Positions 32,431 through 34,890 of a DNA stretch of 64,000 nucleotides are shown one piece after another (within the stretch, counting starts at the first letter, position 1; each line of letters opens with the position of its first letter). The notes under the pieces are model-generated. The model saw only the letters and a list, made by a program, of their open reading frames with translations. It was not told where the DNA came from and did not search any database. Source of the stretch: Curtobacterium sp. TC1 (lineage in GTDB: Bacteria > Actinomycetota > Actinomycetes > Actinomycetales > Microbacteriaceae); assembly GCF_019844075.1 (NCBI RefSeq), contig NZ_CP081964.1:3844001-3908000 (forward strand), read 5' to 3'. The position numbers were made by a program, and so were the translations under genes.

Positions 32431-33201
32431 GTGACCAGGACGACGGACGGATCAGCGGGGGACGCCGACTACGCCCGCATCGGCCAGGACTACCGGCAGT
32501 ACCGGCGCCCCGAGCCGACGTTCGCCCGGGCGATCGCGAAGGCCCTCGGCGACGCCCGCACCGTCCTCAACGTGGGTGCCGGTGCCGGGTCCTACGAGCC
32601 GACCGACCGGCAGGTCACTGCGGTGGAACCCTCGGCATCGATGCGCGCCCAACGACCGGACACCCTGTCGACGGCGATCGACGCCACCGCCGAGGACCTG
32701 CCCTTCGACGACGACACGTTCGACGCTGCGATGACGACGTTCTCGGTGCACCAGTGGGGCGACCTCGAGCGCGGGCTGGCCGAGCTGCGCCGGGTGACCC
32801 GGGGTCCGATCGTGATCCTGACGTGCGACCCGGCCCGCGTCGAGGACTTCTGGCTCGCCGAGTACGCACCAGAGGTGATGGCGACCGAGGCCCGGCGCTA
32901 CCCCGCGCTCGACCGCATCGCCGCCGCACTGGGCGACGACACCGTCACGAACACCCCGCTGCCGATCCCGTTCACGTGCGTCGACGGCTTCTCCGAGGCG
33001 TACTACGCCCGGCCGGAGCGCCTGCTCGACCCGGGCGCCCGGAAGGCGAACTCGGCGTGGAGCTTCGTCGACGAGCTCACCGCACGGCGTTCGGTGGCCG
33101 CGCTCGACTCCGGCGAGTGGGACCGGCGGCACGGGGCGCTGCGGATCCGGCCGACCTACGAGGGCGCCCTCGTCCTGGTGACGGCCGTCCCCGCCGCTTG
33201 A
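32431..33201 (+). CDS. class I SAM-dependent methyltransferase
   Basis: 256 residues. VLNVGAGAGSYEP is the SAM-binding motif I, AVEPSASM the acidic loop after strand 2, and FDDDTFDAAMTTFSVHQW the motif II/III region. The family acts on small molecules (UbiE/arsenite/natural-product types); the substrate is not inferable. GTG start at 32431 lies six nt after TAGGCT (32419-32424). Its TGA (33199-33201) lies within TTGACA just before the next leaderless unit. Confidence 0.88.
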   Translation: MTRTTDGSAGDADYARIGQDYRQYRRPEPTFARAIAKALGDARTVLNVGAGAGSYEPTDRQVTAVEPSASMRAQRPDTLSTAIDATAEDLPFDDDTFDAAMTTFSVHQWGDLERGLAELRRVTRGPIVILTCDPARVEDFWLAEYAPEVMATEARRYPALDRIAAALGDDTVTNTPLPIPFTCVDGFSEAYYARPERLLDPGARKANSAWSFVDELTARRSVAALDSGEWDRRHGALRIRPTYEGALVLVTAVPAA

Positions 33202-33211
33202 CACGTCGACG

Positions 33212-33217
33212 TAGGCT
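33212..33217 (+). promoter_or_regulatory. -10 box TAGGCT of leaderless upstream ORF
   Basis: TAGGCT ends six nt before the GTG at 33224. The same hexamer at the same distance precedes the methyltransferase (32419), a TetR gene (48149) and others in this window. The transcript would begin at or very near the GTG. Confidence 0.55.
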
Positions 33218-33223
33218 GGTCGC

Positions 33224-33274
33224 GTGAGCTTCCAGGAGGTGGTCGGCGCCCGTTTCGCCGGCATCAGGGCGTGA
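33224..33274 (+). CDS. 16-residue upstream ORF (candidate leader peptide) of the FBP gene
   Basis: GTG to TGA gives MSFQEVVGARFAGIRA. It is leaderless by position of the -10 box and is followed 10 nt later by a strong hairpin and then the FBP gene. It ends in GIRA-stop; the next codons would read Gly-Pro. The SecM arrest sequence ends GIRAGP, so the resemblance is worth noting but may be chance. No database evidence; called from position and architecture only. Confidence 0.45.
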   Translation: MSFQEVVGARFAGIRA

Positions 33275-33280
33275 GGCCCC

Positions 33281-33362
33281 CGGTCGTGCCCGCAGGCACG
33301 GCCGCCCTCGTCGAACCCTGACCTCCTCCGCCCGGTGCGGTGTGCGTCCGCACGCCCCGGGC
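33281..33362 (+). promoter_or_regulatory. Structured leader between upstream ORF and FBP gene (attenuator candidate)
   Basis: Hairpin 1: CGGTCGTGCC (33281-33290) with CGGCCGTGCC's complement at 33295-33304, loop CGCA. Hairpin 2: GCCCGG (33330-33335) pairs with CCGGGC (33357-33362) and GTGCG with CGCAC inside. AGGAGGT inside the upstream ORF (33234-33240) is complementary to ACCTCCT (33321-33327). These are potential pairings read by eye; no folding energies were computed. Confidence 0.5.
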
Positions 33363-33382
33363 CCGCTCGAAAGCGATGCACC

Positions 33383-33865
33383 ATGCTCCCCATCACGGAG
33401 AAGACCCTCCGCACGTCCTTCGTCAACGCCTCCCGCAAGGAGACGACCGACATCACGCTGCCCGCCGACTTCGAGGCGATCGACTGGGACGCCCTCGACT
33501 TCCTGGGCTGGCGCGACCCGAAGATCGGTCGGCGTGCGTACGCCGTCGTGCCGACCCTGGACGGCGAACTGATCGGCATCCTGTTCCGGCAGGCCGAGGC
33601 CTCGTCGCGCTCGCGCGCCCAGTGCTCGTGGTGCCAGGACGTCAAGCTGCCGAACGACGTCGCGTTCTACAGCGCGAAGCGGTCCGGGCCGGCCGGCCGC
33701 AACGGCAACACCGTCGGCACGCTGGTCTGCCAGGACTTCCAGTGCTCGCGGAACGTCCGGAAGCTGCCGCCGCCCGCGTACGAGGGCTACGACGTCGAGG
33801 CCGCGCGCCTGCGGCGCATCGAGGACCTGCAGCTGCGGGCCGCGTTCTTCGCAACGGAGGTCTGA
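33383..33865 (+). CDS. FBP-domain protein (FusB-like, elongation factor G-binding treble-clef)
   Basis: 160 residues. The FBP_C pattern is clear: ITEKTLRTSFVNASRKE, DFLGWRDPKIGRRAY, then a zinc treble clef with CSWC about 75 residues in and CQDFQCSR after GNTVGTLV, ending with KLPPPAYEGYDVEAARLRRI. Staphylococcal FusB uses this domain to bind EF-G and relieve fusidic-acid stalling; for actinobacterial proteins the role is inferred. ATG at 33383 lacks a good Shine-Dalgarno (nearest GAAAG), in contrast to its neighbours. Confidence 0.88.
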   Translation: MLPITEKTLRTSFVNASRKETTDITLPADFEAIDWDALDFLGWRDPKIGRRAYAVVPTLDGELIGILFRQAEASSRSRAQCSWCQDVKLPNDVAFYSAKRSGPAGRNGNTVGTLVCQDFQCSRNVRKLPPPAYEGYDVEAARLRRIEDLQLRAAFFATEV

Positions 33866-34035: not shown

Positions 34036-34890
34036 ATGGACCTCGGCGACCTCGACGACGCGACCGCCCCCGACGCTGCCGCGGTGATCCGGAAATGGGC
34101 CGACGTGCCCGCGTGGGTCGACGCCCTGGTGGCCGCGCGCCCGTTCGGCACGGTGCCGGCGCTGCTCGACCGCGCGCGCACCGAGGCGGCGTCGTGGGGT
34201 GCGCCGGAACTCGACCACGCCCTCGCCCAGCACCCGCGGATCGGCGAACGGACGACCGATGCCTCGTCGGCCCGCGAGCAGTCGTCGATGCGCACCGCCC
34301 ACGACGACGTCGCCCGCCGGATCGCCGACGGCAACGCCGCGTACGAGCAGCGCTTCGGTCGGGTGTTCCTGGTGCGGGCCGCCGGCCGGACCCCCGAGGA
34401 GCTGTTGGCCGAGCTCGACCGGCGCCTCGCGGGCGACCCGGCGGTCGAGACGCAGGAAGCCGCGGCTGCCCTCGCCGACATCGCCCTGCACCGCATCCGT
34501 GCGACCTTCGCCGTCCCGCACCTGACCACCCACGTGCTCGATGCCACCAGCGGCACCCCGGCGGTCGGCGTCGGCCTGACGCTCAGCACCGTCGACGGTG
34601 CCGTCGTCGCGACCGGCACGACGGACGCCGACGGTCGCGCCGCGACCGTCGACGGTGCCGTCGTCGCGACCGGCACGACGGACGCCGACGGTCGCGCCGC
34701 GCTCGGCCCCGACGTGCTCGCGCGCACCGACCACGTCCTGCGGTTCGACACCGGTGCCTACTTCGCCAATGCCGGGACCCCGACCTTCCACCCGTTCGTG
34801 ACCGTGGCCTTCCGCGTCACGGGCACCGAGCACCTGCACGTCCCGCTGCTGCTGAGCCCCTTCGCCTACAGCACCTACCGAGGGAGTTGA
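34036..34890 (+). CDS. OHCU decarboxylase / 5-hydroxyisourate hydrolase fusion
   Basis: 284 residues in two domains. Residues about 1-160: OHCU decarboxylase (UraD) with catalytic QHPRIGE and the REQSSM segment. Residues about 165-284: transthyretin-like 5-hydroxyisourate hydrolase (HiuH) with LTTHVLD (catalytic His), ADGRAALG (Arg), FHPFVTV and the C-terminal YRGS. It carries out two of the steps from urate to allantoin. A perfect in-frame 57-bp duplication lies between the first beta strands of HiuH (34588-34701), so the domain is 19 residues longer than usual. ATG at 34036 is six nt after TAGCCT. No uricase is present in the window. Confidence 0.9.
   Translation: MDLGDLDDATAPDAAAVIRKWADVPAWVDALVAARPFGTVPALLDRARTEAASWGAPELDHALAQHPRIGERTTDASSAREQSSMRTAHDDVARRIADGNAAYEQRFGRVFLVRAAGRTPEELLAELDRRLAGDPAVETQEAAAALADIALHRIRATFAVPHLTTHVLDATSGTPAVGVGLTLSTVDGAVVATGTTDADGRAATVDGAVVATGTTDADGRAALGPDVLARTDHVLRFDTGAYFANAGTPTFHPFVTVAFRVTGTEHLHVPLLLSPFAYSTYRGS
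34588..34701 (+). repeat. Perfect 57-bp tandem duplication inside hiuH domain
   Basis: 34588-34644 and 34645-34701 are identical, encoding two copies of the 19-residue unit TVDGAVVATGTTDADGRAA. Identity at DNA level, including third positions, means a recent event (slippage or unequal recombination). Confidence 0.97.

Follow-up and report, generated by a model that had tools for sequence, protein, structure and literature searches.

On balance, we favor the view that positions 33212–33382 of the window, the whole 64,000-nucleotide stretch of Curtobacterium sp. TC1 DNA that was analysed, are a cis-acting leader that senses ribosomes and thereby sets the expression of the FusB-like protein FBP. 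Sequence comparison supports well the existence of a cis-acting leader as such; we infer an attenuation step from it and, with least certainty, poor EF-G function as the inducing cue. FusB-like proteins are common in actinobacteria, and the literature that we found gives neither a role nor a timing of expression for them there. A conserved leader on one FBP type would mean that this type is regulated, with ribosome behaviour as the probable cue.

Organization of the leader locus

All parts of the leader locus lie on the forward strand. A −10 promoter element, TAGGCT (33212–33217), stands six bases before a GTG at 33224 that opens a 16-codon ORF, MSFQEVVGARFAGIRA (33224–33274, stop TGA at 33272–33274). 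The ORF contains (i) a Shine-Dalgarno (SD)-like core, AGGAGGU (33234–33240; family form GGRGGU); (ii) a 7-bp hairpin, HP-II (33242–33262), formed by GUCGGCG (33242–33248) and CGCCGGC (33256–33262); and (iii) a rare Arg codon, AGG (33266–33268), one codon ahead of the stop. Six bases past the stop begins a 10-bp hairpin, HP-A (33281–33304), and behind it comes a conserved CGAACCCUGA (33312–33321), which complements the AGG-Ala-stop region and in the MFE fold makes a tentative basal helix beneath HP-A. ACCUCCU (33321–33327), the complement of the leader SD core and a feature at the genus level only, precedes a second GC hairpin, HP-B (33330–33362, from the window fold), which ends 20 nt upstream of the FBP ATG. 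The FBP gene (33383–33865, ATG at 33383) encodes a 160-aa FusB-like protein with a C4 zinc finger (PF16571). The original prediction, made from the letters of this DNA, had listed TAGGCT, the GTG, the 16-codon ORF and its stop, HP-A, HP-B, FBP and the AGGAGGT/ACCTCCT pair, and all of them lie at the positions it gave; HP-II, within the ORF, was absent from it.

TTGACA (33198–33203) is not a normally spaced −35 element, as it stands only 8 nt from the −10 element and the upstream gene has its stop codon within it. The neighbouring genes for a methyltransferase (32431) and an OHCU decarboxylase (34036) also carry TAGGCT or TAGCCT about six bases before their starts, and therefore leaderless starts may be common in this region of the window. 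A perfect 57-bp tandem duplication, in frame, was seen at 34588–34701 in the OHCU decarboxylase/transthyretin fusion gene (34036–34890).

The window FBP matches PF16571 FBP_C with 174.6 bits (cut-off 27.2) over nearly its whole length, and C81, C84, C116 and C121 are invariant in 40/40 aligned FBP sequences. Among solved structures, a sequence search found FusC alone (2yb5, E 0.0072, FusC 108–202 against query 28–126), and the NCBIfam fusC model reaches an E of 0.036 only. The layout of FusB includes an N-terminal four-helix domain (PMC3352095). In the predicted model of the window FBP (mean pLDDT 90.4), only helices 6–11 and 18–22 precede the first strand, and the protein as modelled appears to be without the N-terminal four-helix bundle of FusB/FusC. 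Because it belongs to the FBP/FusB family, we presume that this short FBP binds EF-G.

The leader accompanies one of two FBP types

PF16571 is found in 276/398 genomes of the window's family. Within the genus, an FBP orthologue (at least 72% identity to the window FBP) occurs in 65/66 genomes; the only exception, G002, carries a second FBP paralogue alone. This paralogue is about 44% identical (locus L067, G000:C3:1053791-1054183) and is listed in nearly every genus genome. The leader is intact in 64/65 genus orthologues, counting one that falls outside the search pattern and was read by eye (L037) and two that were read through a named copy, L238 (L063 and L064); the orthologue without an intact leader, L006, has lost the leader stop. 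Genus leaders are 16, 17 or 18 codons long, with length changes always in frame, and across the bacteria carrying it the leader spans roughly 15 to 25 codons. Removal of L065 (FBP broken, no start found) and of two duplicates from the 65 left a unique genus set of 62, in which L006 alone has no leader.

Beyond the genus set, we turned to named genomes and took their best 80 FBP loci, selected on the protein alone; this set overlaps the genus set in that 40/80 are labelled Curtobacterium. A leaderless short ORF lies upstream in 76/80 (39/40 Curtobacterium, 37/40 others), and GGRGGT is found inside all 76 ORFs even though the last scan required no motif. An intact leader is missing from L200, which has lost the stop, L229, which keeps a remnant, L245 (Glaciihabitans) and L259 (Subtercola). 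Genera bearing the leader include Agrococcus, Frigoribacterium, Leifsonia, Demequina, Herbiconiux, Plantibacter, Leucobacter, Rathayibacter, Agromyces and Frondihabitans, and the leader extends to four further families of the order and to one locus outside the order. In a family sample of 40 FBP loci (39 unique), hand-picked from the PF16571 matches at about one per genus, the leader was found in 20/27 window-type loci (19 by pattern plus the variant L110) and in 0/12 second-type loci, direct scan included. The seven remaining window-type loci have no leader or hold a remnant (L108 a remnant; L082, L087, L095, L099, L114 and L118 none; L100 is not among them). For leader frequency, only such FBP-chosen sets count, loci fetched by the motif model being uninformative, and related sequences are non-independent in every control. 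Upstream of the second paralogue, in the window's genome and four such loci (L066–L070), we found neither a leaderless ORF nor GGRGGT. By these comparisons, the leader appears to be attached to one of the two FBP types and was not seen with the other.

The contig of L108/L229 is labelled Acidobacteria MAG G2_35 and its FBP is about 81% identical to the window's; the taxon label looks doubtful; its leader is cut after MSFREVVGARL and the spacer hairpins are missing. L232, labelled Microbacterium pullorum, has an FBP 79% identical to the window's and a leader of the genus type, with gene transfer or mislabelling as possible origins.

We also searched with a covariance model of the leader, R1. 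In the family, 80/199 genomes matched at an E of 0.01 or better, no genome gave a second strong match, and FBP is the next gene downstream in 30/30 of the best 30 loci. The order search matched 34/297 genomes, and FBP is present at all of its best 20 loci, of which 9 belong to the window's family and 11 to families f6, f8 and f16. Among 20 further loci (14 weaker order matches and 6 weak family matches), 11 have FBP, f10 included; the nine fetched matches without FBP all score below 39 bits. In the class search, 10/296 genomes matched, four of them outside the order and weakly. One locus outside the order, L190, has FBP and a proper leader, MSTMNPILESEVVGASGAGIR, as read by eye; the weak class matches L192, L194 and L195, also outside the order, have no FBP with a proper leader. 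A motif serving many genes was rejected given the lack of a second strong match per genome and the low scores of the matches without FBP. Run on second-type and paralogue loci, the model gave no match upstream of FBP; weak antisense matches in three second-type loci, L102, L107 and L112 (632–672, minus strand, 14.5–23 bits), are probably chance matches from GC-rich coding sequence.

Could the ORF be a conserved leaderless small protein, or a promoter remnant, with no effect on FBP? Some lineages do lack the leader (4/80 named loci are without an intact one), but the hairpins covary, the leader goes with one FBP type and several families conserve it, which makes this reading very improbable. 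Nor is the leader a known Rfam element, as judged by the lack of a match at the gathering score over the whole window; at a relaxed threshold 33180–33400 gave no match either, and among 8 relatives two matches only appeared, far below their cut-offs. No title or abstract on an actinobacterial FBP leader was among the literature matches listed, which covered mostly non-subscription papers. The leader would be a new RNA family to annotate.

Evidence for leaderless translation

A start candidate was defined as TANNNT followed after 5–8 nt by ATG or GTG, 14–100 nt upstream of the motif and in any frame. Exactly one candidate was found in 61/61 unique genus loci and in 66/67 loci of other genera, the remaining locus having none. 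All 127 candidates are in frame with the motif, against a chance expectation of a third, in a 128-locus set that was pre-filtered so that G precedes the E codon and GGT follows it, and that includes several loci each from other genera. L168 and L193 (both of genus g85), in which the ORF reads the motif in another frame, are outside this set. Because every locus but one has a single start candidate and that candidate is in frame with the motif, the leader ORF appears to be leaderless and translated.

Conservation falls on the RNA and the codons

What is conserved in the leader? A 56-base stretch aligns gap-free in 18 genera (18/20 segments given), with the consensus CGCCC-NNN-GGGCG, GU-NNG, GGRGGU, GUCGGCG-loop-CGCCGRC and NNN-AGR-stop. 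We examined codon choice in 129 leaders selected by peptide alone, with no base filter (61 from the genus and 68 others). G precedes the E codon in 128/129 (the exception is L110), although the codon that it closes varies in amino acid (Gln, Leu, Glu, Ser, Gly, Lys and others). GAG or GGG serves as the E codon in 128/129 leaders, and the Gly codon is GGC in 129/129. For the near-stop Arg, 102 of the 129 leaders use AGG and 27 use AGA, and CGN never occurs; in the FBP genes of these loci, the AGR share of Arg codons is 67/2200 (3.0%; 17/996 in the genus and 50/1204 elsewhere). Stop codons are also biased: TGA ends 61/61 genus leaders, and outside the genus TAG ends 50/67 leaders versus 9/48 of the FBP genes whose end lies within the fetched stretch. 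The leader core forms a strong duplex with the 16S tail (mean −13.6 kcal/mol), compared with means of −5.2 and −6.0 kcal/mol at FBP starts.

HP-II is likewise under constraint. In 61 sequences of other genera, 97.2% of 427 cells are paired, compared with 29–58% in slid versions, and the covariation of 0.171 exceeds both shuffled (0.120; 0 of 500) and slid versions (at most 0.101); double-change cells, 5 versus up to 11 in slid versions, do not separate HP-II by this count alone. HP-I, a hairpin absent from the window genus, is 85.6% paired with 24 double-change cells versus 5.4 shuffled; slid by +2, it is 62.6% paired with 28 cells, and its register is less certain.

The position of the rare codon varies among lineages. 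A strict rule of AGR followed by the stop fails: the genus has one intervening codon, Plantibacter and Agromyces have tails, and Leucobacter has no AGR. In the named set, AGR is among the last four codons in 68/76 leaders. It lies further upstream, before a longer tail, in L255 (AGA) and L275, and the leaders of L262 and L264, also without AGR among the last four codons, resemble that of L255. No AGR is present in 4/76 (L250, L265, L271 and L272). These four, from Leucobacter (L265, L271, L272) and an Agrococcus assembly (L250), have a leader of the form RELxxQR-x-EVVG that ends in Asp or Glu; they perhaps respond to a different cue.

Judged by sequence, the conserved part of the leader is RNA and codons rather than peptide. 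The best natural evidence for this comes from L168 and L193, in which the SD core and the hairpin are kept, the peptide is wholly different, and the shifted frame has an AGA with a single codon between it and TGA. A conserved peptide function was rejected, as the SD core, the hairpins and AGR account for the residues that are conserved.

SecM arrests ribosomes through the motif GIRAGP, and the original prediction had considered a similar arrest at the GIRA ending of the leader, with Gly-Pro codons directly after the stop. An IRA ending (GIRA or DIRA) is indeed found on nearly all genus leaders, but such nascent-peptide arrest is extremely unlikely on several counts. The SD core, hairpin pairing and AGR explain the conserved residues. 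GIRA is mostly special to the genus; other leaders usually end in AGxR-stop or ADxR-stop, and Ile precedes Arg in 15/67 loci of other genera. The frame-shifted alleles L168 and L193 place unrelated peptides on the same RNA. Finally, Gly-Pro after the stop is unconserved, the first base there being C, G, T or A.

Constraint on the RNA would also be expected if FBP or another factor bound the GGRGGU/HP-II RNA and autoregulated, translation of the ORF being secondary. Strong model matches do sit upstream of FBP, and FusB reportedly binds nucleic acids during purification (PMC3352095). Protein binding would leave unexplained, however, why the start is so strictly in frame with the motif and why the rare Arg codon is retained even in frame-shifted alleles, and GGRGGU is exactly the sequence with which the ribosome pairs. 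We regard a protein-bound leader as improbable.

Hairpins and pairings in the spacer

HP-A was tested in 44 of the 57 genus sequences that have a short spacer. It is 97.5% paired, with double changes in 6/10 pairs; double-change cells number 43 versus 10.8 shuffled and at most 13 slid, and covariation is 0.442 versus 0.273 shuffled. A leaderless translated leader with hairpins, tied to FBP, was the core of the original prediction, and the check that it had set was conservation of the ORF and hairpins in relatives: both are conserved, HP-A with compensatory changes, and the idea survived. In a folding sample of 30/61 genus loci and 67 others, 44-base windows form more stable folds than shuffles directly behind the stop (z −1.9 genus, −1.3 others) and before the FBP start (z −2.2 genus, −1.3 others), while the average FBP start region is open (z +0.3, others). 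Release of a hidden FBP ribosome site, as once envisaged, is not an obvious mode of action with an FBP start region that is open on average.

A pairing switch between AGGAGGU in the leader and ACCUCCU in the spacer had also been proposed. Support for it is confined to the genus. The two are paired in the MFE fold of 33224–33400 (−88.7 kcal/mol, z −2.54, 4/200 shuffles as good), and genus spacers are enriched in CCTCC (49/61, 20.6 expected), ACCTCC (20/61, 4.1 expected) and ACCTCCT (10/61, 0.2 expected). In other genera, by contrast, CCTCC occurs in 24/67 spacers (25.0 expected) and ACCTCCT in 2/67 (0.6 expected). Leader-spacer duplex energies outside the genus are no better than shuffles, and within it a slight excess was found for the SD core only (z −0.8 to −0.9). 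A general SD/anti-SD switch was rejected given the lack of enrichment or excess complementarity outside the genus.

A second pairing involves the rare codon itself. CG-NN-CCCU, found after HP-A in the genus, complements AGGG-CG across this codon and pairs with it in the MFE fold, so that the last leader codons may form the foot of HP-A. CCCT occurs in 60/61 genus spacers (34.4 expected) and CG-NN-CCC in 61/61, but with 49.9 expected. We keep this reading tentative because CG-NN-CCC is largely expected and the pairs never vary. A trp-like helix between the 3' arm of HP-II and the 5' arm of HP-A seemed convincing on inspection of the genus sequences and was rejected, complementarity being no better than shuffles.

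TTTTT was found after the hairpins in 0/61 genus spacers and in 5/67 elsewhere. With no U-tract in the genus, classical terminators lack support; HP-A and HP-B are putative terminators. Across lineages, the sensing part is widely conserved and the downstream part differs.

The absence of U-tracts in the genus would also suit translational control, in which ribosomes that finish the leader reinitiate at an FBP start with little to mark it, at a rate tuned by the hairpins. The weak SD matches at FBP starts point the same way. Reinitiating ribosomes would nevertheless have to travel 102–194 nt in the genus, or 49–255 nt in others, from the leader to the FBP start and melt stable hairpins on the way, and the FBP start region is itself open; we think reinitiation unlikely, and prefer attenuation in the spacer.

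A possible mechanism for ribosome sensing

How could the leader set FBP expression by attenuation? Transcription would begin at the leader GTG and a 70S ribosome would initiate on the leaderless message. This ribosome would have to pass the in-frame SD core, melt HP-II and decode the rare AGR at or next to the stop. If ribosomes move and leave normally, HP-A and HP-B would form and most transcripts would end or pause there. The footprint of a ribosome reaches some 15 bases beyond its first P-site base on the 3' side. If it dwells at the leader end, its footprint would hold the base of HP-A open, RNA polymerase would read on and FBP would be made.

The likely inducer would be poor EF-G function, since translocation through the SD and hairpin and recycling at the stop both need EF-G. 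We propose this cue because FusB acts in translocation/elongation and in recycling, both of which are EF-G steps. In published work, a non-slippery dnaX codon with SD and hairpin takes about four EF-G bindings per codon (PMC5600365), fusidic acid harms recycling more than elongation and FusB is active in both (PMC3352095), and, from a title cited in PMC2998420, rare Arg codons ahead of stops lead to SsrA tagging. It is conceivable, though we rather doubt it, that the leader exists specifically to gauge how competent EF-G is, with obstacles costly in EF-G that switch on the EF-G-rescuing FBP when translocation or recycling slows, whatever the cause. If true, this would be an RNA sensor of a translation factor's activity, not of a drug or an amino acid.

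Several findings count against the mechanism: (i) outside the genus, no alternative leader-spacer pairing goes beyond shuffles; (ii) the SD core and HP-II adjoin and would act in succession, not simultaneously as in dnaX; (iii) some leaders have no AGR, or have extra codons after it; and (iv) seven of the 27 window-type family loci have no leader or hold a remnant.

Relation to known leaders

The leader would belong to the known class of ribosome-sensing leader ORFs, unusual there in that obstacles in the RNA and the codons count for more than a peptide. In staphylococci, fusB expression is under leader-peptide control. The LP-fusB arrangement there likewise has a leader ORF ahead of a FusB-family gene, and the staphylococcal aj1-LP-fusB structures are located on phage-related islands (PMC12561750); the phylum is different, and we liken the two by arrangement, not by sequence. 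The ABC-F uORFs of cplR, vmlR, lsaA and msrD are also short translated ORFs ahead of a translation-protecting factor, and ribosome stalling on such a uORF sets read-through of the antibiotic-resistance ABC-F gene (PMC10201436; PMC10314930). Unlike these, the Curtobacterium leader appears leaderless, conserves RNA and codons rather than a short drug-specific peptide, serves a FusB-like target and has no U-tract after the genus hairpins.

Like the FBP leader, the dnaX frameshift signal uses an in-frame SD and a hairpin that hinder EF-G-driven translocation (PMC5600365). In the FBP leader, however, we noticed no slippery site, the SD and hairpin adjoin rather than flank the decoding site, and reading ends in frame. 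The comparison with trp-type attenuators is also partial. These have a leader ORF with an internal hairpin followed by more hairpins, as does the FBP leader, and several regulatory codons. The FBP leader differs in having no run of regulatory codons (usually a single AGR), and no antiterminator pairing was found outside the genus.

In high-GC bacteria, the leader could be used to report the state of translation in a compact form, and nature supplies variants for comparison, with a lost stop, no AGR, a shifted frame or missing hairpins. In the stop-less variant (L006/L200, Curtobacterium sp. VKM Ac-1376), the leader frame continues without a stop to the FBP ATG, so that leader and FBP are naturally fused.
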